DNA from: Asparagopsis taxiformis
Lineage: Eukaryota; Rhodophyta; Florideophyceae; Bonnemaisoniales; Bonnemaisoniaceae
Direction: 5' to 3'
Length of the DNA: 64,000 bases
Assembly: GCA_030407315.1 (NCBI GenBank)
Contig: JALQPE010000064.1
Location: forward strand, 1 to 64,000
The translations under genes were made by a program, and so were the position numbers. Positions 3 to 52,085 of the stretch are shown here, piece after piece. Position 1 is the first letter of the stretch, and each line of letters starts with the position of its first letter. The notes under the pieces are model-generated. The model did not search any database. It saw only the letters and a program-made list of their open reading frames with translations, and was not told the origin of the DNA.

Positions 3-420
3 CACTACGGTGTTGAGAATGAAAACAGACAGTAAATTTACTGTCTGAGACAGTAAAAATTACTGTCTGGCCAAGACAGTGCGCGGAGACAGTAAAATTT
101 ACTGTCTGGAAATTTCAGAATACTGCTGCAGCAGTAAACTGGCACGAAATCTGGACAGTACCAAAAACAGTAAAATTTACTGTCCAGAACAGTAAATTTT
201 ACTGTCCGGAAGTGTTGCCGCCAGACAGTATGTGCAGACAGTACATTTTACTGTCTGAGACAATACATTGTACTGTATTACTGCACTGTCTGGGGAAATC
301 TGTAGACAGTAGTGTAGATAGCAAATTGTATTGTCTGCGGGTAGTACCGTGCATTGTTTGACAACACTGTCTGGTGGAGTGGACTTAGAGGAAATATGGA
401 GCATAGTGTTGGTGTGAAGG
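3..420 (+). repeat. Type I terminal inverted repeat and subterminal boxes of copy 1
   Basis: CACTACGGTGTTGA is followed by GAATGAAAACAGACAG and then by many short palindromes of the form ACAGTAAATTTACTGT or ACAGTAAAATTTACTGT, spaced at a few tens of bases up to about position 370. The same block occurs inverted at about 38430-38829. In CACTA elements such subterminal repeats are transposase-binding sites; that role here is inferred. Confidence 0.85.
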
Positions 421-908
421 TAAATATTGGAATGGTGTGTGGTATACGACTATATTAATTGTGATGGTGCTTTACAGATAGTTGGGTGCGGGGAAGCTAG
501 ATGCTGAATAGGAAGTTGTAGAAAGGAAGATTGGGAGAACAGAACATATCTGGTTTGTCTCACCGTAAGGAGAGAATGTACAGAGTAGCTATAATATGTT
601 GAGTTTAGCATTTCAAATTATACCTATCTATCTTTGCATTGAAAGTGTCTAGTAGGAGACGTCAGTCTGGTAGCGAGGTGTGGTATGCACAGGACGTGGG
701 TGGTGGCAAAGGAAAGAATACGCACCATCCACCACTAAATTATGAAAAATAAACGTTACGGAGCACTGGGAAGCATTATTATTATGTAGAGTAGACCAGG
801 ATGGATGCATCCACTGAAATGATATTTGCTACAACACTGCTGTACTAAGCGTGACATCCTTCCTTCAAAGCAATTCTCCTTTTAGCAAACTCCAATTGCA
901 AGGTCAAG
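421..908. other. Subterminal leader without a gene
   Basis: AT-rich non-coding sequence between the subterminal repeats and the 508-aa gene. It is conserved in copy 2 (about 37930-38420), so it belongs to the element and probably holds the promoter and leader. No clear TATA box or other site can be defended. Confidence 0.5.
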
Positions 909-2435
909 ATGAATCCCGAAACCTCCGTAAGCATCGCCGCATTTTCCGAAATAACGCGTGAGGGCTTTTCGAACATCACTGCAGAGTTGAAAGCCCTGAG
1001 TGATAAAATGGATGCCGTCGAGAAGAGCACCATTCAATTACGCGAGACTCTCGGAAATGTCGCCAAGACTGTCTCCATGCTAAACACCGATATGCAGGAG
1101 GTCAAGAGCATCGTCGATGGGCTTCTGAGCCAGGGACAAGGACATCCGAAGAAGATCGCCTCCGAGAAGGACAGGGAACGTCTCCGCATTGCGCAGGACG
1201 CGGAGAAATCGTTCACGTTCGAAATGGTGTGTGCTGTGCTGTGTGCTGTTGTTCCAACGTACACGAAGGCAATGGTGGATAAGAGGGATAGGCATTTCAA
1301 CGGATGCCAGCTAATCAATACGCTGATGTTCGCCAGGCAGAGCAATGAGCGAAAGGATGTGTTCAATAGGACGCTTGCCGGCCGGAACCACATTGAATTG
1401 CGCTGCCAAGTTGTGACCTCTTTAATCAAGAATACGTGTCAAAACAATTCTTTCAGACAGGGAGGAGACCGTTCCAGCTCCAATGGAACGTCGGAAGGTA
1501 TCGAACGGTGGAGGGCGCGGGGGTATGTGACTACCGGGACCATTGAGGAGACAATTCGCGGAACGGACTCTGCTCGCATGGATGGAATGCATGGGACGTC
1601 CGAGGGAAGTGATGGGGCCGCTCGAAAGCAGAAGCGAAGAAAGGTTGGTGACAATGGGCCGTTGCACAGAAAGGAGGTAGGCATCACTGTGACGAAATCG
1701 GCACTGACGGCAGTGACCGGGTTTATGAACAAGTCCAGAGATCATGTGCGAAACCGGTTCATCCGAGATCTTGGATTCGTTCTATACAGTGGGTTTCAAG
1801 GTTCAGTCCGAATGGAGCATCATTTGCACGACGGTGGGCTGGACATTGAGTCAGTTCCAAGTCTGTACTCGGCGCAGAGGAAAATGAATGCAGCGGAGCG
1901 TGCAGCAATGGATGACAAGAATATGAAGATTCTTCGCGACTTCATTGCAGTGCGAAAAGAAATGCTATTCAAAGTCGAGTACGAAGTTCAAATAATTGGA
2001 GAACCGGACAAGAGGTTTTTGACTAGGAGGATCAATTTAGTAGAGGTTGCACTGAACTTTGCAGTCGCCTACATGCAATGTTCTGATAAGAACATGTTCC
2101 TGCGACGTTCAGAATACTCCTTGCAATTCATCTACATACTTGCATACGGGTTCCGAACGATTTTGAAATTTCAAAGTGGAACAGAGGTGGAAGGAGCGCA
2201 AATCCGGGAAATCAATGAAGCAGTGAAACTGCTTCTTCCCGGGGAGCGGGTGAGTAGTCGGTTCATGAATGAGGAGGTTTTGACTATATCGCGTGATAGA
2301 TATGAAGAACTGAATGTAGACGATGGGGGGGAATCAGTGCTGGAGGAGAGCTTCAGGTCTATGGAAGAGGACGGAGGAGATGCAGAATATGTGAAGGTAT
2401 TCGTCGATGATGAAATCGAGAATGAAGGGGAGTAG
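909..2435 (+). CDS. Element accessory protein, 508 aa, coiled coil plus unknown domain
   Basis: An open frame of 508 codons starts at an ATG (AAGATGA) and is the first gene inside the type I end. Residues about 20-75 form a heptad-like coiled coil. A basic cluster KQKRRKV near residue 240 looks like a nuclear localisation signal. The C-terminal half (about 330-480) is a well-ordered region of unknown family, followed by an acidic tail. I do not recognise a known domain. A decayed homologue lies at 36447-37916, and a diverged, spliced homologue of almost equal length (522 aa) lies at 20026-21708, so the family is a constant part of these elements. A DNA-binding accessory role, like TnpA of CACTA elements, is possible but unproven. 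Confidence 0.7.
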   Translation: MNPETSVSIAAFSEITREGFSNITAELKALSDKMDAVEKSTIQLRETLGNVAKTVSMLNTDMQEVKSIVDGLLSQGQGHPKKIASEKDRERLRIAQDAEKSFTFEMVCAVLCAVVPTYTKAMVDKRDRHFNGCQLINTLMFARQSNERKDVFNRTLAGRNHIELRCQVVTSLIKNTCQNNSFRQGGDRSSSNGTSEGIERWRARGYVTTGTIEETIRGTDSARMDGMHGTSEGSDGAARKQKRRKVGDNGPLHRKEVGITVTKSALTAVTGFMNKSRDHVRNRFIRDLGFVLYSGFQGSVRMEHHLHDGGLDIESVPSLYSAQRKMNAAERAAMDDKNMKILRDFIAVRKEMLFKVEYEVQIIGEPDKRFLTRRINLVEVALNFAVAYMQCSDKNMFLRRSEYSLQFIYILAYGFRTILKFQSGTEVEGAQIREINEAVKLLLPGERVSSRFMNEEVLTISRDRYEELNVDDGGESVLEESFRSMEEDGGDAEYVKVFVDDEIENEGE

Positions 2436-2661
2436 TATCGGATGAAACCAGTTTCGGTGTAGTAGACGAAGAATGAAGAAATAAAATTTCTGTTGAGTTG
2501 AATTTTGTAATAGATGGAAGTAGATAGATGCGAGACATCAGGAAACCAGTCAGACGATAGTGTCAAGTCGAAGGAAAAGCGCAGAGACAGGTAGTGGAAT
2601 AGTCGAAGTAAGAAGGGGCGAGGGTATCCGTCTTTACTAGAAATTGATGGCCACAGGAGCT

Positions 2662-3010
2662 CTAGAATGGAATACCCAGGAACAGGATAACTACGGATAG
2701 GTGTGCTTTATCATTTTTGCTCCGGACTGCAGGTGGCAGGTGGAGGAGAGGGTGGGTGGGTAGTGTCTGAATCCGCATTGAAGCCAAGACGAGAGATAGC
2801 CTCATAGCCAATGTCTTCAAGCTCCTGGCATATAGTAGTACCACTGAAAATACAGCAAGGTAAGCGTAGATGTAGTGTACCAAACGTCTCTGCGGTTGAT
2901 AGAGGCTGGAAAGTGCTGTAACAAGCTCGGCGCTGAATACGTCTCCACAGTAACGAAAACGTTGCTCCATAAGTAACAGTAGCCTTATCACGTAGGTGGA
3001 AAGAGTCCAC
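2662..3010 (-). pseudogene. 3' remnant of gene X
   Basis: The minus strand encodes only the C-terminal part of the gene found at 34796-36202 in copy 2, starting at a methionine followed by DSFHLRDKATVTYG. The front of the gene is missing: sequence near 3003-3010 jumps to the spacer before the methyltransferase gene, whereas copy 2 has about 1.3 kb more between the same two points. One extra A near 2718 also shifts the frame close to the end relative to copy 2. Gene X is convergent with the 508-aa gene in both copies. Confidence 0.7.
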
Positions 3011-3283
3011 GATTGGACTACAAAGATACGCTTAGAGATGTTACGGGGCCCAATAAATTGCATGGAAAAATATTTTGAGTATTACTTTAGTATTACATTG
3101 ATTATTGAGCTAACAGTCGATGTAGTTATCTTGTAAAGGTTCGGACAGGGGTGGAAAGGAAACAGCCACCGAAGTGCTACCACTCGCTGACACTTTGTTT
3201 TAAACAACCAACTTCTGCTTTGCGCCACCCTGGTCAAGCAGCAACCAACTATCCCTTTCTTATAAACTCTACCTTTGTTCGCC

Positions 3284-6200
3284 ATGGAAGGAACGTTCCA
3301 CAATCACGGTGAAAAGCACGACGGATGGGTGTTCATCGACCCCAATCAAGTCAGCAAATTCGTATCGATTCGCGATGTTGATGCAAGTCATGTGGAAGCG
3401 CTCATGGAGAGCATTCGCAACAGCGGTTATGACACAGCTCATCCCGTGACTGGCAGGTTTCGAGAAGGCGTTCTGGAGATATTGGATGGAGCGCACCGCT
3501 GCATGGCAATTGTACGTGGAATGAAGAAGGGCGTCTTTCCTCCTGGCGTTACGATTCCTATGCGAGAAGAGTCTATCGTGGCGGACACCAACAGCAGTAC
3601 TGCTGTTGTGCTGGACCGTGTGAGAGCGACGACATCCAACGACATTGCAGGCCTGCAAAGGCGCATGATGTTTGTTGAGTATCTGATGATCGCCGTTGAT
3701 CTCAGAGACGAGTACTGGGTCCAAAACGGAAAGGACAAGTACGCTCATATTTCGTCTGTGAGGATGGCCGATGTGTTGGGCTGGATCAAATCCTGCGATA
3801 CAAGCGGCCAAATTGCTTCAAGCCTGAGTGGTAAACCGCAGTACAGCTCATGCATGTCTATCCTGGCTGTGCTTCGGCCGTATCACCGAGCAGAAGATTC
3901 GAGTTCGATTGATTTGCGTCTGTGGCAAATGTTTTGTCATGCATGGGGACTCAATGCAGAGATGGGTGATTCTCCGAGGATGGTTGAGTTTCCGAAACAG
4001 GTGGGGGTGACTAGTTCTCGTGCCGTCGAAATGTTTGGCAAGACACCCCGCGGAGAATTGTCCTCTCCACTGAACCGCGAACTGCTTTCGAGCAGGTACT
4101 TTCTAGACGGCGCTACATCCGACATGCAAGATTCTTTGCAGGCTAGCCAGAAGCGGTTCAGGAGGCTGATGGTTATGATGTGCCAGTGTATCTTGGCTAT
4201 TCGCAGTAAGGAGATGGGCAGTGCGCCATCTAGGCGGGCCAGAGCCACATCCGGGGCCATTGGTGGTGGTGGAATGGTTGGAATTGCAACATCCAGTGCG
4301 CAAGCCAACGAGCTTGGATTTGTTGTCGACCGTGTGTTAGCTGCGTGGGATACCGGGGCAAGAGTGTTGGGGTATGAGGATGTTGAATCGATGTGCTGGC
4401 CGTTCATGGTATTCGATCCTGCGAGCCTTTGCTTCAGGTCACTCCCGAATCGGTCTGATGGCTGCGCGGTCGAGGAGCATCGGAAAAACCTGACCATTGT
4501 CCCGAAAACTGTAGACAGTGAAAACGGGTTCTGTGCCGACCTTCCAGTGGCTGTGGATGCAAGGCTGCGATCATTGACAAGCGCCTTCCTGCTGTCGATA
4601 CGCCAATGTGTCACTGAGGTGAATGTGTTCGCCGAGCGTGGTCAGCTGATGCAGAGACTTCGAGCCTTGCTTTTCGACACTCCTGACAAGTTCGGATTGA
4701 ACTCGTTCATGCGAGCCAAGTTGAACACGTCTCATGCCCTGGATGGTCAGAGGAGGCTGAAGGCTTGGTTATTGCGAACCCGAGAGCAACGAAAGCTTCC
4801 TCTGACCATGGATGAGTTGCACAGTCTTGAGGATACGCCCGAGCCTGGCATCCTTGAAGGTGTACCTGCGCAGATGGAAATATCCGCAGCAGTGCCAAAC
4901 AATGGCAGCGAGGATATAGAAGAGGATAGTCTGGAGCCACAGAGGAAGAAGGCTAGGCTGGAGCGCGGTGGTGGAGAGGACGATAATGCGGCGGTTGCTA
5001 GCGAAACAGCAACAAGAGAAGGTGCGGCCGAGGATGACGCTATGGAGGTTGACACTGTATCGCCTACAGAAGCACCGCTCGTTGACGTCGGAAAGGAATC
5101 CAAGCCGGAATATGTCACCAAGCTGGAAGCTGTGATGGGGCGTTACATTCACACTGTGAATTGTGACGCTACTGATGTAGCCAAAGAGGTGGAGGACAAA
5201 ATTAGTTTCCTGGAAGATGGTGTGTTGGAGGACAGTGTTCAGCTTGTGCTCACTGATCCTCCATTCAACACGAGGCGGGAAGGCGGCAGAGAAAACTCGG
5301 AGTACGATATTCTGGAGCCGGAAGAGTTGGCGAGTGTTGCGTGTGAAATAGTTCGAGTTCTTCGGCCTGGCGGTCATGCTCTAATCTATTCCAGCGTGCG
5401 CCAACTCGTGGCATGGATGGATGCAATCAGAAATGCCGAGCCTGGCAAGATGATTGTGGACAGTGTTCCAGTCGTGCTATCTCGCCGACCACACAGCTTT
5501 ACGTCCAATCCATCGACGAAAACGTGCACACTTCATAATATGCACGATTTCGTTATCCATGCGTATAAGCGGGGGAAGGGTATGGCTGCATATGATATGG
5601 TGGATTACAGGTTGCACAATCCGGACATATCGAGGCACCCTGGGTTCACCAACGCGATTGACAACGTTCCGAGGTTGTCGGCTGGTGAAGCTCAATACGA
5701 TGGGCAGAACAACCGACTGCGCCATGAGCAGAAGGCGTTGACCACTCTTCGTGAGCTTCTGGAACGATTTTCGAAGCAGAACGATATCGTGATGGATTTC
5801 TTCTCGGGAACATACAGCACAGCCATAGCGTGTATGACGTTGAGGGATGGTACGTATCGTCGGTTCATTGGGTGTGAGAAGGAAAAAAGGTGCCACGATG
5901 CATCGCAGGAGTCGATACTGCATGCTTTCGTCAGTGAGGTGAAAGCCGGGCGATATGGGGGGATCTTGCAGCGTGAGGTGGAGAGTATTCTTGGGGACGA
6001 GTCGGTACCGGTCACAGGAAAAGCTCCAAGGCTTCGTCAGAAGCACATCTCAGATGCACCAGAAGGTTTGCCTGCTGTGACAGCATTGCCGAACCACCTG
6101 CTTGTGTTCGTTGCGTCAATGAAGAAGGACGGGTCGATGCTTCACAGATTGAGCGGGGTGCCTATGGACCAGTGGCCGGCCGAGGACATGCACTCGTTTT

Positions 6201-6751
6201 GGAGCATAGACCCGGACGCGATTCTGGCTGCTGATGCCGCATTCTACGGTGTCTATGTTTCGCAATCGGAGGTAAGAGGTGGTGGGTTTGGCGTATTCGC
6301 GGCGAAGAAACTGAAGAAGGGGACGGTCATTGGCTGGTACAACGGGACGATTTTCTATGCGAAGATTCGAGACTCGGAACCGCAGAGATCAGTGATGTAC
6401 GGCCCGGAAGGATTTGGGTGCACAGGAGAGAGGTTCCAGGACTACAACATGGAATTGGAAACCACGTACATAGGGAGGGGTGCACCTGTTCGGAAGGTCT
6501 GGCTCGTTCCAGCGGTCTATAATTGTACCAGCTACCTCAATGATTGTCGGGTCATTGACGGAACGGAGAAAGCGACCGAGGTGAGTCGAACACAGTCAGC
6601 CGAGTTTCGACAAGGCGATGCCATAGACAAACCGGACTTTGCTTCGAATATCAAGAATCCCCATGCTGTCAAGGTCGTTCTGACCAGAGACGTTGAAGCT
6701 GATGAGGAGATATTTGCTGACTATGGTAGAAAATATTGGCCAGCTAACTGA
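3284..6751 (+). CDS. ParB-like / DNA methyltransferase / SET-domain fusion protein
   Basis: The intact frame encodes 1155 aa from the ATG at 3284 (GCCATGG, strong Kozak context); the frame is also open 9 bases upstream but without ATG. Residues about 9-80 resemble a ParB/sulfiredoxin-like domain, with the box DGAHRCMAIVRG. A nuclear localisation-like QRKKARLERG sits in an acidic linker near residue 565. A DNA amino-methyltransferase follows: motif IV DPPFNTR near 658, then VRVLRPGGHALIYSS, then motif I DFFSGTYSTAIAC near 838. This order (IV before I) is that of beta-class N6-adenine or N4-cytosine enzymes. Residues about 987-1155 form a SET domain with GGGFGVFAAKKLKKG, YLNDC in place of the NHSC motif, and a closing FADYGRKYW. 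ParB-methyltransferase fusions are known from phages and bacteria; fusion to SET in a eukaryotic transposon is unusual. A decayed copy is at 30811-34281. Confidence 0.87.
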   Translation: MEGTFHNHGEKHDGWVFIDPNQVSKFVSIRDVDASHVEALMESIRNSGYDTAHPVTGRFREGVLEILDGAHRCMAIVRGMKKGVFPPGVTIPMREESIVADTNSSTAVVLDRVRATTSNDIAGLQRRMMFVEYLMIAVDLRDEYWVQNGKDKYAHISSVRMADVLGWIKSCDTSGQIASSLSGKPQYSSCMSILAVLRPYHRAEDSSSIDLRLWQMFCHAWGLNAEMGDSPRMVEFPKQVGVTSSRAVEMFGKTPRGELSSPLNRELLSSRYFLDGATSDMQDSLQASQKRFRRLMVMMCQCILAIRSKEMGSAPSRRARATSGAIGGGGMVGIATSSAQANELGFVVDRVLAAWDTGARVLGYEDVESMCWPFMVFDPASLCFRSLPNRSDGCAVEEHRKNLTIVPKTVDSENGFCADLPVAVDARLRSLTSAFLLSIRQCVTEVNVFAERGQLMQRLRALLFDTPDKFGLNSFMRAKLNTSHALDGQRRLKAWLLRTREQRKLPLTMDELHSLEDTPEPGILEGVPAQMEISAAVPNNGSEDIEEDSLEPQRKKARLERGGGEDDNAAVASETATREGAAEDDAMEVDTVSPTEAPLVDVGKESKPEYVTKLEAVMGRYIHTVNCDATDVAKEVEDKISFLEDGVLEDSVQLVLTDPPFNTRREGGRENSEYDILEPEELASVACEIVRVLRPGGHALIYSSVRQLVAWMDAIRNAEPGKMIVDSVPVVLSRRPHSFTSNPSTKTCTLHNMHDFVIHAYKRGKGMAAYDMVDYRLHNPDISRHPGFTNAIDNVPRLSAGEAQYDGQNNRLRHEQKALTTLRELLERFSKQNDIVMDFFSGTYSTAIACMTLRDGTYRRFIGCEKEKRCHDASQESILHAFVSEVKAGRYGGILQREVESILGDESVPVTGKAPRLRQKHISDAPEGLPAVTALPNHLLVFVASMKKDGSMLHRLSGVPMDQWPAEDMHSFWSIDPDAILAADAAFYGVYVSQSEVRGGGFGVFAAKKLKKGTVIGWYNGTIFYAKIRDSEPQRSVMYGPEGFGCTGERFQDYNMELETTYIGRGAPVRKVWLVPAVYNCTSYLNDCRVIDGTEKATEVSRTQSAEFRQGDAIDKPDFASNIKNPHAVKVVLTRDVEADEEIFADYGRKYWPAN

Positions 6752-7044
6752 GCTACTTTGATAGATTTGAGTAAACACGCATTGACAGAGACAATAGACT
6801 GTGCATCATCTTCCAAGAGCGCTAGATATTATAGACTACACTACAACAATCGTGACATGACTGCAGGAAGGCATCTGCGGCCTGGAGTGCAAACTATCCA
6901 CTTTTCCACTGCTATACCTATGGATACGAAAGGGAGAGAAACTAGAAAGATGTGAGTGCGAAATTGTGTAGCAACGCAGCATGTAGAACACCAGTAAGAG
7001 AGCGATGTAGGAGAAGCAGTCACCCCATTACAGTGCGGGCCGTT
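6752..7044. other. Intergenic 3' flank of the methyltransferase gene
   Basis: No coding sequence is seen. The stretch is conserved in copy 2 (about 30520-30810) and leads into the palindrome array. Confidence 0.5.
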
Positions 7045-8280
7045 TACCGGGGATGCTGACAGCAAAGTCATCGTTACGATGACTTTGCTGTAAGAAAACA
7101 AATCATTACAGCAGCCATGATTTCTTTACCGGGTAAAAAAATTGTGGCCGCTGTAATGAAACGTTTTCTTACAGCAAAGTCATCGTAACGATGACTTTGC
7201 TGTAAGAAAGCAAATCATTACAGCGGCCACAATTTTTTACCCGGTAAAATTTCTTGCTGATTTTTTACCCGGTAAAAAATTCTTCGGCCACTGCAAGGAA
7301 ACGGTTCCTTACAGCAAAGTCATCGTAACGATGACTTTGCTGTAAAGAACCCTGGTAAACGGCTTCGGCTGTAAGCAGCAGGGAGTTTCGTCCTTCTCCC
7401 ATCTTGGTAAAGGTACCTTTACCAAGATCGGAGAAGGAAGAAACTCCCTGCTGTCTCACATGAGAAGCGAAGTGTGAAGTAGGGAACATCACGAGAGGAT
7501 GGTTTGGACGGCTGTTGGTCGCAAAATCTACTCCTTGTGCCGTGAGCCACAGCGACCATATGGTACCTGTGCCTCACGGCATAAAATATATATTTAACCC
7601 GCCCGGGCGGGAACCGGCGCCGGTTCCGGTGCACTATAGTCGTCAATAAGTAGGACTCTAGCTACTCACTATACAACTATAATCGTAAGGTAGGATAGCC
7701 TAAGATCGTAGTACGGAAGAGACGGATGGGAGGATGTGTGTAGAGGAAAATTAAGGCGGCAGTACGAGTAGCCTATCGTGGTAATAGACGAGTATTTCAT
7801 TGCGAGAGGGGGCGTGAGGGGGGAAACGAAAGGCGTCAGTCGTCACCAGAGAGGCTGGGATGCTGAAGACGGAGTAGAGAAATGGGGGAGAGGGTGCAGC
7901 CAGACTGCTTACAGCTTTGGCAGTTCCGGCGGGGTGCTGACAGCAAAGTCATCGTTACGATGACTTTGCTGTAAGAAAACAAATCATTACAGCAGCCATG
8001 ATTTCTTTACCGGGTAAAAAATTCTTCGGCCACTGCAAGGAAACGGTTCCTTACAGCAAAGTCATCGTTACGATGACTTTGCTGTAAGAAAGCAAATCAT
8101 TACAGCGGCCACAATTTTTTTACCCGGTAAAGAAATCGTGGCTGCTGTAATGATTTGTTTTCTTACAGCAAAGTCATCGTAACGATGACTTTGCTGTAAG
8201 GAACCCTGGTAAACGGCTTCGGCTGTAAGCAGCAGGGAGTTTCGTCCTTCTCTCATCTTTGTAAAGGTAAGAAGCGAAGT
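7045..8280. repeat. Palindrome array A (six 37-bp perfect hairpins plus larger palindromes)
   Basis: Six copies of a 37-bp inverted repeat with arms TTACAGCAAAGTCATCGT and one central base (T or A) lie at about 7058, 7169, 7309, 7939, 8051 and 8163. The stretches between neighbours are themselves inverted repeats centred on TTTACCGGGTAAA, so two kinds of hairpin alternate. Further palindromes sit between the two groups: 7376-7453 (39-base arms, two mismatches, centre GGTACC), 7538-7581 (22-base arms, three mismatches), 7598-7611 (CCCGCCCGGGCGGG) and 7610-7627 (GGAACCGGCGCCGGTTCC). The array is repeated at 29380-30510 in copy 2. It has no gene. It could be a protein-binding array, a replication or cruciform site, or piled-up foldback insertions. 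Confidence 0.9.
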
Positions 8281-8704
8281 TTGAAGTCGGGTAAATTGCT
8301 CAGCAAAGGTCTGTACGGCTGTGAGCAGCTCTCAGGAGTATTTTACCTCACGTGGTCTCTGTTCAGGTTATACCCTGTATATATATAGGTAGCCTAGTGT
8401 AGGTGGGAAGATAGACGAAAATTCTACAAATAATTTATCACAGTGACGGCTCTCGTAGTCGAAATCTGCGCGTTGTCAAGGGTTGAAACTAGTCTCCCCC
8501 TACGGCCTAGCTAGTAAAATCATATAACGTTGTAGACTAATATTAAAAAGTAGCAAGCAATCTGCTGAGTAGCACTAAACTATGAGATGAAGGACAGATG
8601 TATAGATGAGAACTGAAAAATGGGCTAAGGTAACAATGTTGAGATGAGAAAGACAGAACTTTATAGCAGGGAACAGTAGTATAGGTTTTAATACTTCTGA
8701 TATG
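8281..8704. other. 3' flank of the ParB/dioxygenase-like gene
   Basis: AT-rich, no coding sequence seen. It probably holds the 3' untranslated region of the minus-strand gene ending at 8705. It is absent from copy 2. Confidence 0.4.
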
Positions 8705-11700
8705 CTATCTATTGCTCCTATCGTACTTGTAATATTCGACGGTGTGGATGTGGTCCGTGAGGACGTCCTTCTCCGTCTTCAAGTGAATGTGGCCGCGCGT
8801 GGGCAGGCCATAGACTAGCTTTTCGCCCGCAGGAATATCTCCGCGCTTGAAGCCGACCCCGTAATGGTAAAGGTCACCGCGACCAACCAATACCGAATAG
8901 GGTGGCACATACAGCCTATGAATGGGAACCTTCCACATATCGGCGTCCGGATTGGCCAGGCATACATGACTATAAGGGGCAACTACTATAGAGAACCCAT
9001 CGGCTCCGCTCGACATCATGAAATATGATGGAGACTTGGTAGGACTTCCAACACTATTCGTCGTTACCTTGAAGTCCGTGTGCCCATCCTGGTCCGCAGC
9101 CCCATCTGCTGTAAGAAGCAGCCGCAATCCTGTCTTCGGGAAGAAGACAGGATCCTCACCCTCCATTCCCAGCTTGAGAAACTCCGCACAAACACCAAGA
9201 GCAAGCTCTGCCACCAACTTGTTCTTATACATATCCAAATTTTCCTCCTCCAACTTGTCGCACAACTCACGCCGCGGCAGAGTGAGGCGCCCACGACCAC
9301 CATCTATGCGGTCCTTCGCATCACCCACGTTGTGGATGAACTGCCACGGCGAAGGATCGAAGCTGGGCTTTGCGAAAGCTGGCGGCTCGTCCTGTGGCTC
9401 CCTGTCGTCATCGTTAGAATCAGACTGCTGGGAGGGTTTTTCAACCTCCTCAACCAGCGGGAACTGCCTAGCGAAGTGACCGAACAGCTCATGCGTCGCA
9501 TTACCAGCCGTGGACGATGCCAACAGGCCTTCCATAACAATAACCCCCAAGTTTTCCAGCAACGCCCGCTTCACCGCAAAGTACTGTTCCACCACCGTAT
9601 CCTCAGCACCCGGCGATGCAGCTACCTGGAATGCTGCCGCCCTCATTTCCGCCCGAACCGTCTCCACCGTCGTACTTTCCATATAGTACTTCATCCGGCT
9701 GCCAGACGCAATTGCGCTGGGGAGAACGGCGGCCACATTCTCATCGACGATACTGTCGGGAATGGGATTCTCCTGGGCGTCGTCGAACTGGAGAACCGGC
9801 TCCCGAGAGCGACCTCGGGAAGCCGACTTGGATTTCTTTGACGACGACTTTGATGAAGTCTCACCGAGCATTCTCTTTTTGGTAGAAGGCTCGGGCGTCG
9901 CAGAAGGCGCATCCAAGTTACGCTTCCCGAGGATGGAGTTTTCACCCGCATCCTCGGGGGCGCTCTCCAGCTCGACGACCTCCACAGCACCACCCGCCGT
10001 TCCACCACGACCGGAACGACTCGCTTGCAGGCGGGTACTCCTTCTGGGCATCACTTTCCTCCCAGAAGTTTCCACTCCGGGCGGTGCAGAATCACTGACT
10101 TCAATGACATCCCCGTCAGGATCTGCACCGCCCTTCGCACTGCTGCCCTCGACCACATTCTCGGGAGTAGGGCCCTCCGTCGAAATCCTCGCAACCGTCT
10201 TCTGTCCAACCCCACCGGATGGTGAAGGGACGAAACTGTCATCGCTGGAGCTTCCCGAACTGCTAGCAGATGCAGAACGGGAAGCTTCGACAGCGGGGGC
10301 CGGAGCAGCAGGGTGCTGCTCGGCAGCCGGAGTCGCAGGCTCAGGCTGCGAAGCCGGTGAGACCTGCTCCTGCGCGGCTTGGACAGGACGGTTGGGGGTA
10401 CCAGTCCCGGCGTGGGAAACTGGACCAGACTGTTCACTGCCAGCCTGGGGACCACGCGCAGTCGGCTTGACCGGGGTCACCGCAGGGGAGGATGCAGACA
10501 CGGCAGGGGTAGAGACAGGAACAGGGGCAACCTCGGAATTACTGGAAGATTCCAGTTGAGGTGGTGGGGGCAAAGGGATGGAGGATGAAGGGATGGGCAA
10601 GGAATTGGAAGAGGAAGGGATGGGGGCATCATCACCACATGTGGCTGGGAGCGCAGCATGTGGGATGTCTGGGTACATCGCGTGAAAGCGTTTCCGCATA
10701 ATCATGTCGCGGTACCCAGTGACGCGCAGGAGCATTTTCCTGGCGTCCTTCCCGAAGACAGACTTCTTACGGGGAAAAATATTTTCGTAACTGTAACCAT
10801 CGGGGGGGCCTTCCTTGGGACGGAAGTCTGCCCAACACCCCTTCTTGGGGACCATCTGAGCAAGAACTTCGACAACGCGCGAGCGAATGTCGAAGCTCTT
10901 GCTCGGGTCACCCACGCTGGGAATTGAGCCATCCAGCATCCGCAACACATCCGACACGTTCCAGTACTCGGCCACCTCCTTCACGTACCCGAAGATTTCC
11001 AACAAACCAGCAATCCATTCCTGCCCAATGGTGCCAACCGAGTACGGTTTCAGCCCGGCCGACCGACGGCTACAAGTGTAGCGCGCCGTCATCTCCAGGA
11101 TGAAACACTTCTGCACATCCGGAGCACTCCTGAACGACCCATTGAACAACAAGTTCACCGTACAACCAGCCAGATCCTCGGTCGAAGAGAACTGCACGAA
11201 CTCCGGCCTGTTCGGAATACTCGACCAGTACTTGAAAGCAGGGCTTTCAATGGTCTTGAACCCTCGCGCGATCGAGACGTAGCGCATGAGCTGTCTCGGA
11301 CGAATCCAGCTCAGCGCTTTCCGTTCTTTGATGTATTGAACGGTCGGCTCGATCTTCTTCTTTCCCAGGCGGTGGATATTGATGAACTCCATCACAGAGC
11401 ACACATTGTCAGCAACTGTTACCTCGCTGACATTGTGGGTGTGGAAGTTCATCAGCCGTGAAAGCGGGAGTACTTCTTCGGAGCAGAAGACATCCCGGCC
11501 AAGCCGAGTCGGTGGGAGGAGAAAGTCGACTGGAATAGTTCCAAAGCGACGGTAGATGTCAGACTTGACAAACTCCTCCCACTCTGGACTGTCCTTCGCA
11601 GGAGCAGGTCCAGCCGACTCGAGAATGGCCTTCAACGCGGTCACTCGGTGAGATCCATCGACGTATTGCAGTCGGACTTTTGCATTGGAATCAATCACCT

Positions 11701-12352
11701 CGCAGACGGACACGCGTGAAGCAATCACGGAAAATCCCTGAGTGAGAAACGTTTTCTTCAACTCATCAACGCGATGCGGCCTGACCACCCTGGACACGAC
11801 TGCCGGAGGAGAAACATCCAGAGGGGAAATGAAGACTGGAATGTTTCGGCAGCTCTCCGGACTTATGTCGTAGTCCACATCCACCGGGATGGGCACTGTG
11901 CCAGGGTAGGCCAGCCTGGTGCTGCGGAGAGGCTTGTTCGGTACGATGTCACGAGCGTTGTGATCATCGACCTTCTCCGCATCCTCTGCCAAGTCGCTGC
12001 CGGACGCGATGATCATGTCCGGAGCAGGCGAACTAGGCAGAGGAGCACCAGATCCCTCGACGGCTGGCGCCGCTTCGGCAGATTGAGCCGGAAGCGGAGT
12101 TGCGGGAACGCCAGCGTCGATTGTCGGGACAACCGCGGGATCGGAAGCGGAAGGGGGGGAGGGGACGGGCTTAGGTGCTGGGCTGAGCTGGGTCAGCGCT
12201 GCAGCAGCTTCGCAAACGTCCATGGGGACAGGGGGGGCCAGAGAAGGAGAATGAGAGGGAGAAGGAGAGGGAGAAGGAGTGGGAGAATCGTTGTCACGGC
12301 GGCTGGCAGAGCGCACCTGGCGGTCGAAAGCGTTGGGGGATTGTTGAGCCAT
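8705..12352 (-). CDS. ParB-like protein with C-terminal dioxygenase-like (DSBH) module
   Basis: The frame encodes 1215 aa from the ATG at 12352 (GCAATGG); it stays open upstream to 12421 without ATG. Residues 1-150 are proline/serine rich. Residues about 175-300 resemble the ParB/sulfiredoxin fold, with DGSHRVTALKAI near 231 matching the equivalent box of the methyltransferase protein. Residues about 560-860 are low complexity with basic runs such as KKSKSASRGRSR that suggest nuclear import. The C-terminal 200 residues look like a double-stranded beta-helix Fe(II)/2-oxoglutarate oxygenase: GHTDF near 1091 supplies the HxD pair and DLYHYG near 1161 the distal histidine. A 2-oxoglutarate-binding arginine is not obvious. 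Substrate is unknown; DNA or histone demethylation is only a guess. The gene lies between two palindrome arrays and is missing from copy 2. Confidence 0.72.
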   Translation of the reverse strand: MAQQSPNAFDRQVRSASRRDNDSPTPSPSPSPSHSPSLAPPVPMDVCEAAAALTQLSPAPKPVPSPPSASDPAVVPTIDAGVPATPLPAQSAEAAPAVEGSGAPLPSSPAPDMIIASGSDLAEDAEKVDDHNARDIVPNKPLRSTRLAYPGTVPIPVDVDYDISPESCRNIPVFISPLDVSPPAVVSRVVRPHRVDELKKTFLTQGFSVIASRVSVCEVIDSNAKVRLQYVDGSHRVTALKAILESAGPAPAKDSPEWEEFVKSDIYRRFGTIPVDFLLPPTRLGRDVFCSEEVLPLSRLMNFHTHNVSEVTVADNVCSVMEFINIHRLGKKKIEPTVQYIKERKALSWIRPRQLMRYVSIARGFKTIESPAFKYWSSIPNRPEFVQFSSTEDLAGCTVNLLFNGSFRSAPDVQKCFILEMTARYTCSRRSAGLKPYSVGTIGQEWIAGLLEIFGYVKEVAEYWNVSDVLRMLDGSIPSVGDPSKSFDIRSRVVEVLAQMVPKKGCWADFRPKEGPPDGYSYENIFPRKKSVFGKDARKMLLRVTGYRDMIMRKRFHAMYPDIPHAALPATCGDDAPIPSSSNSLPIPSSSIPLPPPPQLESSSNSEVAPVPVSTPAVSASSPAVTPVKPTARGPQAGSEQSGPVSHAGTGTPNRPVQAAQEQVSPASQPEPATPAAEQHPAAPAPAVEASRSASASSSGSSSDDSFVPSPSGGVGQKTVARISTEGPTPENVVEGSSAKGGADPDGDVIEVSDSAPPGVETSGRKVMPRRSTRLQASRSGRGGTAGGAVEVVELESAPEDAGENSILGKRNLDAPSATPEPSTKKRMLGETSSKSSSKKSKSASRGRSREPVLQFDDAQENPIPDSIVDENVAAVLPSAIASGSRMKYYMESTTVETVRAEMRAAAFQVAASPGAEDTVVEQYFAVKRALLENLGVIVMEGLLASSTAGNATHELFGHFARQFPLVEEVEKPSQQSDSNDDDREPQDEPPAFAKPSFDPSPWQFIHNVGDAKDRIDGGRGRLTLPRRELCDKLEEENLDMYKNKLVAELALGVCAEFLKLGMEGEDPVFFPKTGLRLLLTADGAADQDGHTDFKVTTNSVGSPTKSPSYFMMSSGADGFSIVVAPYSHVCLANPDADMWKVPIHRLYVPPYSVLVGRGDLYHYGVGFKRGDIPAGEKLVYGLPTRGHIHLKTEKDVLTDHIHTVEYYKYDRSNR

Positions 12353-12586
12353 TGCTTTGGTGAAGAAATGAGGAAAGAAGAGTGAAAGATTGAGAAATAG
12401 AGAAGAAGATCTGAACGACAAGCTGTTTTGCTGCGTAAGCTGAGTAAGATAGGCGAAACTTAGAGATCTGACATATTCCTATTAGTATACACCCTGGTAA
12501 TGATATTCAGCGGTTGACCAATCCGAACCTTCCACATCACTTTTCGTTGTACGACAATTACAGCTCAGGCAGTTTACCAAGGATCC

Positions 12587-12850
12587 TTACAGCAAAGCCA
12601 TCGTTACGATGACTTTGCTGTAAGGAAACGTTTCATTACAGAGGCCAGGAATTTTTTTACCGGGTAAAGAAATCATGGCCACTGTAATGTTTTGTTTCCT
12701 GACAGCAAAGTCATCGTTACGATGACTTTGCTGTAAGAAAACGTTTTCATTACAGCGACCAGGAATTTTTTTACCGGGTAAAGAAATCATGGCCACTGTA
12801 ATGAAACCTTTCCTTACAGCAAAGTCATCGTAACGATGACTTTGCTGTAA
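12587..12850. repeat. Palindrome array B, part 1 (three 37-bp hairpins)
   Basis: Three copies of the 37-bp inverted repeat (arms TTACAGCAAAGTCATCGT, slightly varied) start at about 12587, 12701 and 12813, about 112-114 bp apart, with TTTACCGGGTAAA-centred inverted repeats between them. This is just upstream of the ParB/dioxygenase-like gene's start, so its promoter lies in or beside it. Confidence 0.9.
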
Positions 12851-13448
12851 GCATCCCTGGTAAACTGCTTCATCTGTAAGCCGTTGGTCTCAACCCTCGC
12901 TCTCGTTTCTGTTGTCCTCCATCATCTCCACCTACCTTCCCCCTACACACCACCTCTCTAATGTCACTCTGCCCACCCTTTGGTGCATGAAATATTTTCT
13001 TACCACTGCCATAGTCTACACATACTGCTGCCTTCATACTTCTGCATGCCTACCCTTCAATCTTTCTTCCATCTTTCTCTACCGTGCTAGGCTTAGACCA
13101 TGCTCTGTGCACATCTGACTTACTTAATATCATTGTATAGTTAGAAACTAGAATAATAATTACATCACTAGAGTACACTGCAAATGTTAGTAACTATGGT
13201 TGGTGTGGTACACAACACCCTACCTCCTTCATGAGTAAACTTTGCGCACAGAACCGTTCAATACCAGGTAGTGCAGCCAGCGCAAACCAGGCTTGCACGA
13301 CGCAGAGTGCTCCCCAGAGCCGTCAACAGTCGTCCAAACCATCGTTGTACGATGTTCCCGGCTCCACACTTCCCTTCTCACCCTTCCCAGGGTGGGAGAC
13401 GGACGAAACTCCCAACCGCTTACAGCCGAAGCCGTTTACCCGGGATGC
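12851..13448. other. Segment between two palindrome groups, no gene seen
   Basis: Mixed sequence with short open frames but no recognisable product. It separates the two halves of array B. Confidence 0.4.
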
Positions 13449-13675
13449 TTACAGCAAAGTCATCGTTACGATGACTTTGCTGTAAGGAAAGGTTTGATTA
13501 CAGTGGTGAGAAAATTTTACCGGGTAAAAAAATCAGCAAGAATTTTTTACCCGGTAAAAAATTGTGGCCGCTGTAATGATTTGATTTCTTACAGCAAAGT
13601 CATCGTTACGATGACTTTGCTGTAAGAAATCAAATCATTACAGCAAAGTCATCGTAACGATGACTTTGCTGTCAG
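13449..13675. repeat. Palindrome array B, part 2 (three 37-bp hairpins)
   Basis: Hairpins start at about 13449, 13589 and 13638. The last two are only about 50 bp apart, lacking the TTTACCGGGTAAA hairpin between them. The group lies 190 bp downstream of the stop codon of the transposase chimera. Confidence 0.9.
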
Positions 13676-13863
13676 CACCCCAGCGAAACTGCATCATCTG
13701 TAAGCCTTCCTCACCTCAATGTTGTAACCAAAGACGACTGCGATATTACCTTGTTCTATTCTAGTAGTGCCCACCATAGTTTCCTCCCCTTCTCATATTA
13801 AATTGAGTATTGTATATCTCCCGACCCGTCTACATACGCAAACGTCATGTACTAGCCTAACTT

Positions 13864-16752
13864 TCATCGTTTACTTGAAGGCGGCCTTGATGCCTGCCAT
13901 AGAATGCTATTAAGAACTAATTTCATCAGATATCTAAACGCTCCCAGTAGTTGACATTGAAGGGAGGCTGTAGCAACTTCTCCCTGGAAGTTCGCAGTGA
14001 TAGATGGGACCGGATAGGATGCTGGTACCTCACCGAAGAACGACCCTCCGTGATACACGTCCGTTCGGCATACAAGCAGGGAATACGGTGGGATGCGCAC
14101 GTTCGTCACTGGCACGCGGTACTTGTCTTTCGCTGGATGACTTAGGCACACATGGCTGAACTTGGCGATACGAATGATGAACCCATCCGCACCAGCAGCC
14201 ATCATGAAATATGATGGCGAGTTGAGAGGACCAGTTCCAGTTCCCTCACGGACGGGAACATCGGTATGCATAAGTTGCTCCTGACTACCTTCTGCGGTCA
14301 AAATCAGACGAAGACCCGTTTCTGGAAAGACCACCGCTTCTTCTCTTCCAAACCCGAGCTTCAGGTTCTCCGCACAAATCGCCTTACCTAGCTCCAGAAT
14401 CAGCTTGTTCCTGTACTGCCGCGCGCTTTCTTGCTCAAGGTCATCGCAGATGCTTTTCCGGTCCGTCTTGAATACACCAGTGCTGTCTTTCGGTCGAAGT
14501 GGTTTCCACGGGTTCTTCTGACTTGCACTTGAGCCACTTGTAGTACCTTGGAATGTGCTGGCCATCTGTGTGAATAACTCCTGCACTGCTTCCAAGGAAG
14601 TGCTCAGGACATGAAATGGTAAATCTTCCCCTTCTTCTGCAGCCAGTCCGAGAGTGCGAAGCTGGGTTTCTGTGGCATCCTTACGTGTCGATGCATTCCG
14701 ATACTTGCTCCTGGCATGCGTCGATGTTTGCCCGTTCACTACCGAAGTGTATGCATTCTTCGTGCCACCAGTACTGCTCAGGTCATATTTGCGGAAACTG
14801 CAGATGTGGCACGGAGAGTTTGATGTGTGTCCAAGAACATCCAGGGTATGTGAAACTGCAGGATAGTCTCCAATGCTCCCCACTGGGTCTAGAAATACCA
14901 CAATATCTTCTCCCTCTGCATTTTTCGTTGGGAAACCCTCTGTGCTTCCTCGCACTATATCTTGAACGATGTATCGCAATACACAATTTGTGGACACTCC
15001 CGGAGGTGGCAAACCAATCACTCGAACCGCTTGGTAGCTTCCCCTTTTCCGAGGCGGTAGATTGAGAGGTAACATATAGCATCCACCAAAACTTCCCTTC
15101 CTGCTTGTGAATGGTTCAAAGTCATCCGTGTAAAGGAGAAATCGGTAAACAAAGTAGTTTCGACCATCCTCCAGCTTTCCCCAACATGGTGCATCTTCTC
15201 GCGGAGACGCTGGGTGCCATTGCGACCTGTGGTCTCCGAAACCATCCGAGAACACCCCTGAAACACGAATTTCTTCATAGTTGGGGCTTCCTAGTCTATC
15301 GGGCGGGTTTCTGGCTTCAGCAAAGCTCGCGCCCGGTGGAAAGCAAAGTAACATGGTGGATGCTTCTCCGACCTGCTCTTTCAAATACCTGTTCACCAAT
15401 ACGACGTGTGGAACAATATCACCCTCTTCCATTCCAATTGGTAATAGAACGGTTATCACGTCCCCAGCTCGTGTTACTTTTCCCTTGGCTCCTGCTCCGA
15501 TTACACATTGCGATATCGCTCGCAGAGCATGCTGCCTCTCCCATTCCAATAGATGTGACATTCGCGGCTGCAGATATTTTTCGACATGCACATCATGCTC
15601 ACCGTCGTGTCGAGCCTCATAGGTAACTATGGTCCTAGCATGAAGTTCCCACAACGACGTAACCGCCACTCTTCTCCTCTTCGGTTTCCCACCATCTCTG
15701 TCATTCTTCCTGAACCCTTTTGCTCTTTCGATGACGGCAACCTGACGAGCTCCTGGATGACATCGGATTCGAATTGCTGTTCCATCAGGTACATAAATGT
15801 GCTTCAAACCCTTTTTCCCATCGCTGTCAATGGGAACAACTGCTGTGCGAACGAATGGGTCGCTCAAAACACCCCTCCTGCACTTTGCAATGAACGAATC
15901 TTCAATGCTGCACTCTGCGGTTGATTTTTCTCCTTCCGAGCTTCGATTGTTCGCATCACTGCGGAATGCTTCAAAGATTGGTCGAGTCTGGACATCTTTC
16001 AGAGCCCATGTGCTTGGGAGTACAATACGAACTTTCGCCATTCCTCCACAATTGTCTCTGTCATCTGTTGTTCCACGGGTTCCTACTCCATCTCGATGCT
16101 GTGCAGCTCTTGCTCCGCTCTTTCGAAGGTCTATCGGAAACTCGATGTCACAGCTCTTTGCATAGCAGTGTTTCCTCAAGAATGGTAGTATCTTCTGTCG
16201 CATCACAGAGTCCGACGGGACGTGCTCACTTGGATCTCTGCGGAAATTCATTCCGAACAGGGTACCTTCATAGTGGGCTCTTGTCATTCTTTGAGTTCCA
16301 CTCAGCTGAAGAGCCCCATACATCGCAGGCCATTGTAGTAATGCCTTGAAATCACCACATGCTTCATCCCCAGCATTTCGGTCTATCGGGCCTCCAGTTG
16401 AAATGGAATCAGAACCTCGTCCGGTTGCTTCTTCCGATTCCATTAGCGTGCTCGATGCTACGTAGATGTCACTTCCAGCTTCATCGTTGTTGCTGTACAC
16501 ATCAATAAAACCTTCTATTGTGTCACCCATAGGGATTGGGGACTCCAATAGGTCATCTGTGGTACACTCACGTCGTAGCTCATCACCTCTCGGGATTTCT
16601 TTGTTCATGCAGGCTGCATCACTGCTGCGGATTTCTCCCTGCAGTTTCCCAGGAAGCTGTTTACTGGGACTGGCCACATTGAGTGAATCGAATCTCGCCT
16701 TTGTCCTACGACTTGTGGTTTTCTTTCGAATAGGAGTCCGTCTCGGAGCCAT
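13864..16752 (-). CDS. Chimera: CACTA transposase N-terminal two thirds joined to a dioxygenase-like module
   Basis: The frame encodes 962 aa from ATG 16752. Residues up to about 720 are a Tnp2-type (transposase_21) CACTA transposase: YTDDFEPF near 541 (first catalytic Asp), LPLNLPPRKRG, VIGLPPPGVS, then GDYPAVSHTLDVLG near 628 (second Asp) and PCHIC (Cys pair). Up to the DNA near 14579 the gene matches copy 2; there copy 2 continues into the rest of a transposase, whereas this gene switches to a module about half identical by eye to the end of the 8705-12352 protein, with MHTD near 828 and DVYHGG near 898. The catalytic Glu region is therefore lost and normal transposase activity is unlikely. 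The long uninterrupted frame suggests a recent join or selection on the fusion. Confidence 0.82.
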   Translation of the reverse strand: MAPRRTPIRKKTTSRRTKARFDSLNVASPSKQLPGKLQGEIRSSDAACMNKEIPRGDELRRECTTDDLLESPIPMGDTIEGFIDVYSNNDEAGSDIYVASSTLMESEEATGRGSDSISTGGPIDRNAGDEACGDFKALLQWPAMYGALQLSGTQRMTRAHYEGTLFGMNFRRDPSEHVPSDSVMRQKILPFLRKHCYAKSCDIEFPIDLRKSGARAAQHRDGVGTRGTTDDRDNCGGMAKVRIVLPSTWALKDVQTRPIFEAFRSDANNRSSEGEKSTAECSIEDSFIAKCRRGVLSDPFVRTAVVPIDSDGKKGLKHIYVPDGTAIRIRCHPGARQVAVIERAKGFRKNDRDGGKPKRRRVAVTSLWELHARTIVTYEARHDGEHDVHVEKYLQPRMSHLLEWERQHALRAISQCVIGAGAKGKVTRAGDVITVLLPIGMEEGDIVPHVVLVNRYLKEQVGEASTMLLCFPPGASFAEARNPPDRLGSPNYEEIRVSGVFSDGFGDHRSQWHPASPREDAPCWGKLEDGRNYFVYRFLLYTDDFEPFTSRKGSFGGCYMLPLNLPPRKRGSYQAVRVIGLPPPGVSTNCVLRYIVQDIVRGSTEGFPTKNAEGEDIVVFLDPVGSIGDYPAVSHTLDVLGHTSNSPCHICSFRKYDLSSTGGTKNAYTSVVNGQTSTHARSKYRNASTRKDATETQLRTLGLAAEEGEDLPFHVLSTSLEAVQELFTQMASTFQGTTSGSSASQKNPWKPLRPKDSTGVFKTDRKSICDDLEQESARQYRNKLILELGKAICAENLKLGFGREEAVVFPETGLRLILTAEGSQEQLMHTDVPVREGTGTGPLNSPSYFMMAAGADGFIIRIAKFSHVCLSHPAKDKYRVPVTNVRIPPYSLLVCRTDVYHGGSFFGEVPASYPVPSITANFQGEVATASLQCQLLGAFRYLMKLVLNSILWQASRPPSSKR

Positions 16753-18555
16753 CTTGATGTTTTTGTTCTTTTCTTCTTCGCTCAGTTTTGTTGCATAGAA
16801 TACAACTCTAAACTTCTATGACATGACTACTATCTCAATACAGTACTACTACTTTTAACCGTTACGAAACCTTTCCAGGCTTTCATTCGATCCAATGAAC
16901 TGGTTCACCACAATGCTTTGCCCTATGCTCATTGCTTTATGCACATTGATTGCTATTTCATCCGGACTCAACATCGTTTTGCTATCTTGTATCGCATCCC
17001 CTAACCACAAACCCAGCCAAGATGTATCCATTTCCGGAAAACGGCCGTTTATTTCGCAGTGATGCTCTAGGCACTAATACTGAATCTGATTTTCTCATAC
17101 ACGTACTTCCTACTCGTATACTCTACCATTTTCGGCCCTATTTACAAGTTGAAAGCACAATCTCTCGTTGAATCGTACTCGGTGTGATATCTTAAATTAG
17201 CATAAATTTATATATTGCAATGCAGATTCACTGCTCGCTTGCAACATGAAAATTATAAAATTTCTCCCACACTGCTGTTTCCTAGCCGCCCACATCCACG
17301 TGGCCCGCTTTGACTGCCTGCCAAGTGTGCTCAGAGCATGCAATGACGTCATCGATATATACCGTCCAAATCATCACTGGAAGCGCGGACTCCTCGTCCA
17401 GGAAAGTGCGCCATTTTTCCTACTCCTCGCCTCCCCCTTTCCAGTAGGCCCCATATGCTAGTGTTTTTCCTATATTTCTGTAGTGATGACGTCATTATAG
17501 ACTAGAGAAGGCGGTAGAAGATACAATAATTTTGCGCCTGTTCTGCCAGGTCATGTGCTTCAAAGCGTAATTCGCACCCTAGGTATCGTTTTTCTGGGCC
17601 ACCCATCGCACCGCTCCGTTTCAAATTCATCACTCTATTGTTCTCCTACACGTCATTTCCGCCCGCAGAGTGCTACTTAAACAACAGATTCTGGAGATCC
17701 CTGTTTCCATCTTCATATCCGTCGGAAACAAAGCAACAACTCTGGCTGTGGAAGCAGTACAGATCATCTATACTGCTTCCAAAGCGTAAGTTGTAGATCA
17801 TCAATACTGCTTCCAAAGCCAAAGTTGTTGCTTTGTCTCCGACGGATATAAACCATGATGGTACGTTTCCACAACTCACGCCACTAACCCAGTTTTCTAT
17901 TCGTTTTCTCTTTCTCAGGTTTCCAGTCGGTGAGTGTTCCACTTCTACTTTCATTTATCTTTCTCTCTTACCACTTCTCCACTACTTTTCTTTTCTGCCT
18001 GTGAGTACATATCTCAATTTGGGATGCAATGGTATTTGTTAAGGTACGTTAGTCTCCTAATCACCATCAATTTCCCTCTCCAATTCAACGTCACTAACTT
18101 GTTTCCTTTCTCTACATCATTTTTTCTTCTTCTCTTCATTTCCTAGCTTATTCATGCAGCTCAATCAGTTGATAGATTTCTAGACTTTTCTAGTAGTTTT
18201 AGTTTTACTCGTCGGAATAGTGTTAGTTGTAGTAGCATTTTTAACATAGGGATTGTTTATTCGCAATGTAGCCTGCGCAAATAAACAAATCCAAAGTGAA
18301 GCTTCCCATATCGCACCCTCTTAGATTGCTACCTATCCTACCGCGTATACCTCTCGCTAGCTCATAGTCACTACGAAATAAAAATTCCTAGCCGTACTAT
18401 TCTGTCCATTCCCATATGAATACCGTCCATGCCCCATCCTCATAGCGCTAGAACTGCCTTCCTCTACCCCAGAAAGATGCCCACGACAGCGTGACGCTCC
18501 ATCTCATCCACCACTCCCAGACACCGAATTTTACTATATCAGGACACTACTTTTA
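16753..18555. other. Transposase upstream region, conserved among copies, no gene called
   Basis: This 1.8-kb block is conserved in copies 2 (about 23755-25547) and 3 (about 40893-42939). It must contain the minus-strand transposase promoter and leader. On the plus strand, several splice-like signals are conserved (GTACGT at 17861, TTTCTCAG ending 17918, GTGAGT at 17930 and 18001, GTACGT at 18045), which may mark an outward transcript. Confidence 0.4.
17715..17849. repeat. Foldback inverted repeat in the transposase upstream region
   Basis: ATATCCGTCGGAAACAAAG at the left is matched by the reverse complement CTTTGTCTCCGACGGATAT at the right, with further pairing of GAAGCAGTA-type sequence inside. 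Copy 2 has the same structure at 24450-24584. Copy 3 has only the left half near 42200, so it was lost there or gained elsewhere. Confidence 0.75.
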
Positions 18556-18975
18556 CTGTCTCCAGGTGCTGCCCAGGGCAGCACGAAATACTGTCTCCAG
18601 GTGCTGCCCAGGGCAGCACGAAATACTGTCTCCAGGTGCTGCCCAGGGCAGCACGAAATACTGTCTACAGGTGCTGCCCAGGGCAGCACAAAGTACTGTC
18701 TACAGGTGCTGCCCAGGGCAGCACAAAGTACTGTCTACAGGTGCTGCCCAGGGCAGCACAAAGTACTGTCTACAGGTACTGCCCAGGGCAGCACGAAATA
18801 CTGTCTACAGGTACTGCCCAGGGCAGCACGAAATACTGTCTACAGGTATTGCCCAGGACAGTGAAAATCACTGTCTCCAGGTATTGCCCAGGACAGTGAA
18901 AATCACTGTCTCCAGGTACTGCCCAGGACAGTGAAAATCACTGTCTCCAGGTACTGCCCAGGACAGTGCACCGTG
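18556..18975 (+). repeat. 35-bp subterminal tandem repeat, 12 units
   Basis: Twelve head-to-tail units of about 35 bp begin with CTGTCTCCAGGTGCTGCCCA and end in GCACGAAATA or GACAGTGAAAATCA. The last units contain GACAGT, so they grade into the ACAGT/ACTGT boxes found at all ends. Apparent long reading frames here come from the repeat and are not genes. Copy 2 has about three units, copy 3 one to two. Confidence 0.95.
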
Positions 18976-52036: not shown

Positions 52037-52085
52037 GGTTATCGGTCCCCACCGCTCCACTGCCCACGAGTGCGCCAATTCCAAT

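Follow-up and report, generated by a model that had tools for sequence, protein, structure and literature searches.

The first 64,000 nucleotides of contig JALQPE010000064.1 from the red alga Asparagopsis taxiformis (assembly GCA_030407315.1, hereafter the window) contain a gene at 3284–6751 on the forward strand that couples a probable ParB-like domain, a DNA methyltransferase and a SET domain in one chain, as judged from translation, Pfam, genome copies and alignment. The gene sits inside a 19.3-kb transposon with CACTA-type ends (element 1, 3–19326, forward strand). Translation yields 1155 residues with a single terminal stop and no internal stop, so the intact frame claimed in the original prediction, which was made from the letters alone, stands. 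Residues 652–875 (5237–5908) match the Pfam family PF01555 (N6_N4_Mtase) with an expectation value (E) of 2.3e-16 and a score of 60.9 bits, the cut-off being 26.7. The catalytic DPPF at residue 658 comes first and the S-adenosylmethionine (SAM) motif DFFSGTYST follows at residue 838, the beta-class arrangement that had been proposed. The predicted fold of this part is likewise that of a beta-class methyltransferase, with the N6-adenine enzyme CcrM the nearest among the fold matches listed; one structural-neighbour comparison covered residues 613–886 only and listed neither SET nor ParB, and the Foldseek matches are the best 50. Residues 1001–1148 (6284–6727) match PF00856 (SET) at E 4.5e-6 and 27.5 bits over a cut-off of 22.4, and their model matches SET7/9 (4e47, E 1.3e-4, probability 1.00) among the Foldseek matches listed. 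SET7/9 is the nearest of the listed fold matches for the SET part, and its entry 1mt6 carries the title H3 K4-specific. Structure prediction thus recovers both folds that had been expected, and on these models one protein carries a beta-class methyltransferase fold plus a SET fold.

The N-terminal domain (residues 8–96, 3305–3571) is probably ParB-like and is the least secure of the domain labels. ParB and sulfiredoxin domains share the order beta-alpha-beta-beta-alpha-beta, and their box opens the second helix. In the AlphaFold model, residues 8–96 form strands at 15–18, 55–60, 63–68 and 91–95 and helices at 34–47 and 70–81, with a DGAHR box at residues 68–72, so that both the predicted element order and the box placement agree with this arrangement. 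The box is kept in all six aligned proteins that have such an N-terminus, the window protein included. No Pfam ParB family matches the window protein at E 0.1, nor the related methylase families B–D described below at E 1, and in a PDB profile search of the region SbnI or free serine kinase account for six of ten matches, all non-significant (E 0.21–0.59). The proposed ParB-type box is therefore present in the expected structural context, but the ParB name itself is only probable.

The fusion gene is not confined to the window. In a draft assembly of 141,494,207 bp and 3,156 contigs, in which some loci may be assembled twice, a protein search returned 3,826 candidates, and all 40 that were scored, the window's own among them, are full length, free of stops and 99–100% identical, on 40 contigs. 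One contig of this assembly bears nine near-full phycobilisome matches, two of them equal in score and 177,170 bp apart, and is read as a red-algal plastid. A methylase profile exceeded its cut-off at 150 of 150 scored places (from 2,605 candidates), and 20 fetched regions distinguish by motif five families: A, to which the window protein belongs (DPPFNTR), B (DPPYGLD), C (DPPYSLQ), D (DPPYFLK) and E (DPPYNVR, with one copy reading DPPYNVL). For an exact 27-mer covering the catalytic motif, the assembly has 422 places with the family A sequence and 776 with that of family E, against none for the reversed controls; these are counts of motifs and not of intact genes. Families B, C and D (loci L019, L020 and L026) combine a DG.HR box with the methylase and have no SET domain. 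Family E (L028–L035, L037 and L038) combines methylase and SET with no ParB box; in L031 a DGLHR box is present in a separate open reading frame (ORF) close to the family E copy. Families A and E align over residues 342–1151 of A (E 5e-39). Because box-methylases lacking SET and methylase-SET proteins lacking the box share one genome, parts were gained or lost more than once. Families C and D have related ORFs (41% identity) beside them, and a relative at L037 contains the stretch DNCTRENKN, which may belong to another transposase type. A SET profile scored at 150 of 1,661 candidates gave ten matches at E 2.6e-11 or better, which look like host genes, and 140 weak ones, mostly of 33.7 bits, which read as family E. 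A chance ORF or a contaminant as the source of the frame was considered and is rejected in view of the 40 intact copies and the same fusion in other records.

Among ten gap-free copies (the window's included; four distinct sequences), the ratio of non-synonymous to synonymous polymorphism (pN/pS) is 0.76 for residues 1–200, 0.24 for 201–600, 0.13 for 601–900 and 0.11 for 901–1155, with 11, 16, 16 and 15 changes respectively. Although the numbers are small and the copies related, these values point to constraint on the methylase and SET parts and to less on the ParB-like part.

Relatives were sought with residues 600–1155, scoring being limited to the 7,993 candidates with the most words in common; 19 proteins were found, including the near-identical P0002. 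A whole-protein search, which drew its words from the first 500 residues, yielded P0002 alone. Aligned together with the window protein (P0001), 20 of 20 proteins match the methylase profile and 18 of 20 the SET profile at E 0.01. When ten were rescanned for SET, six exceeded the curated cut-off (P0004, P0006, P0007, P0009, P0012 and P0017), P0014 and P0019 fell under it, and P0020 and P0021 gave no match. The full order of ParB box, methylase and SET, for which a database search had been suggested, occurs in six aligned proteins (P0001, P0002, P0004, P0006, P0007 and P0009), and a further methylase-SET protein, P0018, is recorded for Chondrus crispus as an adenine specific DNA methyltransferase. 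Catalytic residues are kept in relatives down to 22% identity: the D-P-P of motif IV and D838, F840, G842 and T843 of motif I are present in all 20 proteins, and in the SET part G1021 is kept in 20, N1086 in 18 and Y1147 in 17. A single private fusion was also considered and is ruled out by the other families in the genome and the relatives in other records.

For a tree, 120 of 158 prokaryotic and viral ORFs were removed beforehand for want of a match or for covering fewer than 150 profile positions; the 61 methylase domains used are 20 prokaryotic ones, 18 viral ones and 23 from algae or transposons. This tree, whose midpoint root serves for drawing only, places the 23 algal and transposon methylases on one side of a branch with support 92/79, adjoined by the long viral branch L157. 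Prokaryotic and phage enzymes are the sole non-algal relatives in the collections searched, and in at least five of the 158 prokaryotic and viral ORFs a ParB-like box precedes the methylase, as the original prediction had stated for bacteria and phages. The viral contigs contain no relative of the whole window protein. The idea that a methylase of bacterial or phage type was captured and joined to a SET domain is partly supported, by both folds in one chain and by the nature of the relatives, but the joining was not a private capture by this element, because 18 of the 20 aligned proteins, including that of Chondrus crispus, match both domains and the 23 methylases group together.

The assignment of the carrier to the CACTA type holds for its ends and is less firm for its transposase. 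Terminal inverted repeats (TIRs) beginning CACTACGGTGTTGA were found by scanning at all four ends of element 1 and of a second, inverted copy (element 2, 23292–38829, reverse strand), and a 17-base pattern of the TIR end, allowing one free base, has 1,408 matches in the assembly and none when reversed. CACTA/EnSpm elements have TIRs that start with CACT(A/G) and duplicate 2–3 bp of their target site. Element 1 is flanked by AT and AT, a candidate target-site duplication with only two left-flank bases available in the window; the flanks of element 2 are mismatched. Subterminal GACAGTA...TACTGTC repeats (repeat families D15 and D17, pair I14) occupy the left end of element 1 (3–386), and an array of 35-bp tandem repeats (family D1, 18449–19078) adjoins its right TIR. 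The transposase (13864–16752, reverse strand, partial) was recognised by eye from motifs, GDYPAV...CHIC in element 1 and ERMHQPLKK in element 2, and no Pfam transposase profile matches the ORFs of the elements. In element 1 its frame at 13864–14685 passes into a copy of a dioxygenase-like region discussed below, whereas in element 2 the frame continues otherwise. A 508-residue ORF (909–2435, forward strand) matches no profile over its cut-off. Element 2 lacks a long open frame for its methylase gene and carries a segment, absent from element 1, that matches the region of a 467-residue ORF in other copies. The end of element 2 at 38829 abuts a third partial copy (38830–43371), inside the transposase gene of that copy, and no second half of this copy is listed among the repeats beyond element 2. 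Outside the elements, GC skew is strong and of opposite sign at 52001–56000 (about -0.4) and 60001–64000 (about +0.35).

Both elements contain arrays of a 31-bp near-perfect palindrome, CAGCAAAGTCATCGTNACGATGACTTTGCTG. Repeat and palindrome scans place the first array at 7056–8203, after the fusion gene, the second at 12584–13645 and a further one at 29487–30509. The exact core occurs at 8,355 places in the 141.5 Mb and its reversed control at none. The arrays could be binding sites or the subterminal repeats of nested elements. A single TIR-type palindrome is present at L037, a family E locus that also holds an end of the family A type.

Several components of this system have known counterparts: giant EnSpm elements with four or five ORFs, SET-bearing Harbinger and MuDR elements, TET-bearing EnSpm elements and bacterial ParB-methylases are all already known. 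In Chondrus crispus, giant EnSpm/CACTA families (Kojima, Bao and Jurka 2013, as cited in PMC6431247) are 16–20 kb with 4–5 ORFs and resemble element 1, of 19.3 kb with four long ORFs, in type and in red-algal host group; the citing passage of PMC6431247 mentions neither a methylase nor a SET domain. Fungal TET/JBP-bearing EnSpm and Plavaka transposons, as described in PMC12730594, are CMC-type elements of several unrelated lineages that also carry a DNA-modification enzyme as cargo, but their enzyme works on methyl marks already in place, whereas the cargo here is a predicted DNA amino-methylase with SET in one chain. Phytophthora HarbingerS and MuDR elements (cited in PMC12730594) carry a SET methyltransferase, but belong to other superfamilies and, in the description given there, have no DNA methylase or ParB joined to it. 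In bacterial and phage ParB-methylases, too, a ParB-like domain precedes a DPPY methylase within one chain. These proteins include Bce_0392, reported in PMC5512222, which describes a ParB-methylase from Bacillus cereus, and loci of the present collection with the box DG.HR (L114 and L158) or GGNHR (L067, L082 and L089). Their length of 483–554 residues leaves no room for such a SET domain, and the algal methylase clade is separate from the prokaryotic and viral methylases in the tree, where L114 and L158 are not among the rows. The bdelloid rotifer protein N4CMT, according to PMC8885841, is likewise a bacterial-type N6_N4 methylase that a eukaryote acquired and fused to a chromatin domain, and the structural-neighbour comparison gives it the same fold; it is, however, a host gene with a chromodomain reader and an SPPY motif, where the window protein is a transposon gene with SET and DPPF. 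Among the papers listed in searches of an open-licence library, none describes the combination of ParB, methylase and SET, as judged by titles and abstract openings.

What the fusion protein does for the element can be addressed by a model in which it acts as the element's own epigenetic writer, marking its carrier in a permissive, anti-silencing manner. We regard this as the most likely reading, while holding it tentatively. The ParB-like domain would tether the protein to its element, perhaps at the palindrome arrays. The methyltransferase would place an amino-methyl mark on the element's DNA, most likely N6-methyladenine (6mA) given the DPPF/DPPY motif and the CcrM-like fold, and the SET domain would methylate histone H3 or another nearby lysine. 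The joint DNA and lysine mark would be permissive rather than repressive, so that the element stays transcribed. This direction is proposed by analogy with 6mA in transcriptionally permissive regions that also bear trimethylated lysine 4 of histone H3, as reported in PMC12695648, and with transposon-borne SET and TET genes, which PMC12730594 interprets as counter-silencing. The domain content, the constraint on both enzymatic parts, the repeated carriage in the genome and the lack of a C5 DNA methyltransferase match in the draft assembly (introns ignored) also speak for the model.

A number of observations weigh against this model. For the tethering step, the palindrome is present on contigs C4 and C8, which lack the exact family A motif, and the examined loci of families B–E (at most 9 kb each) hold between none and three palindromes and none of the arrays. 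The ParB-like region itself evolves under the least apparent constraint (pN/pS 0.76 on 11 changes in residues 1–200), its top PDB profile match is an unrelated synthase (E 0.19), comparison with the N-termini of four prokaryotic ParB-methylases gives a probability of 37% (P 3.5e-4 for one comparison), and its profile finds no match in the 158 prokaryotic and viral ORFs. For catalysis, motif I of the window protein has a tyrosine in place of its second glycine, leaving FxGxG incomplete, while among prokaryotic and viral relatives this glycine is present in 108 of 125 motif matches and absent in 17. Across families A–E the substitute at this position is Y, F, M or L, and the 20 aligned proteins have Y, F or C there. 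SET active sites are characterised by the motifs GxG and NHS and a catalytic tyrosine; in the window protein GxG and Y1147 are present but the NHS position reads Y-L-N-D. Finally, the direction of the mark is reversed in the bdelloid rotifer, where PMC8885841 ties the related methylase to silencing.

A repressive direction is also the basis of the first alternative, in which the protein writes 6mA or N4-methylcytosine together with a silent histone mark and so restrains its own element, limiting host damage and copy number. This is a lesser possibility; a parasite profits little from thorough self-silencing, and the family looks recently amplified, as judged from the 99–100% identity of the 40 scored copies. 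Control or protection of transposition is a second alternative and likewise a lesser possibility. Here methylated ends or subterminal repeats would time excision to replication or block a host nuclease, with SET modifying the transposase or a repair factor. The bacterial ParB-methylase Bce_0392 has been reported with nicking activity (cited in PMC5512222), and the three families that have a ParB box and methylase but no SET suggest that DNA marking alone is useful. However, no nuclease target is known, and this reading does not by itself account for the SET match retained by 18 of the 20 aligned proteins. It is quite unlikely that the protein acts mainly in trans on host chromatin or defence genes, with an indirect gain to the element: no sequence feature links the protein with the element that encodes it and the palindrome is scattered over 8,355 places, but a diffusing writer would aid dead copies too and would be hard to keep intact in 40 scored copies. 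A passenger or artefact, be it contamination from bacteria, a false join in the assembly or a hitch-hiking gene in decay, is very improbable despite the prokaryotic type of the methylase and a draft assembly in which some copies may be one locus assembled twice, given the frame kept intact in all 40 scored copies on as many contigs, the same fusion in other records, one of them named Chondrus crispus, and the low pN/pS of the methylase and SET parts.

Element 1 encodes a second protein with a ParB-like box (8705–12421, reverse strand), recognised by alignment. It has VDGSHR in its N-terminal part and a C-terminal dioxygenase-like region with HTD ... YHYG. The protein P0003, from another record, matches this ORF at 41% identity over 357 residues, and the HTD and YH of the C-terminal region are common to P0003 and the tail of the transposase ORF, invariant in the three aligned sequences. 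TET/JBP enzymes and other 2-oxoglutarate- and iron-dependent dioxygenases are marked by an HxD...H metal triad in a jelly-roll fold. By eye the region reads as a putative dioxygenase of this class, a fold that neither model nor profiles confirm: the AlphaFold model has a predicted local distance difference test score of 33, the region gives no dioxygenase profile match, and a PDB profile search returns just two LINE-1 ORF1 chains (E > 0.5). In an extension of the self-marking model that we find rather unlikely, the two proteins would form a self-loading system like ParB/parS, the ParB-like domains clamping the palindromes, the methylase and SET spreading paired marks, and the putative dioxygenase of the second protein erasing or tuning them. 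Were this the case, writer, eraser and loading sites would travel on one mobile element.

If the self-marking model is right, the fusion represents a portable epigenetic system assembled from bacterial and eukaryotic parts, in which one protein methylates both DNA and histones, and would offer a natural dual DNA-and-histone writer for study. The C5 DNA methyltransferase family PF00145 has no match in the draft assembly with introns ignored, under a search whose control was positive in 10 of 14 genomes; the equivalent search for MT-A70 gave no match either, but its control was silent too and the result is uninformative. In the absence of a detected C5 enzyme the elements may be a main source of DNA methylation, in which case red-seaweed epigenomes could be shaped by parasites. 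In PMC12115072 the Asparagopsis taxiformis contig with the bromoform (mbb) cluster is drawn with genes labelled 'site-specific' and 'adenine-specific DNA methyltransferase', and these may be transposon genes of the kind described here.

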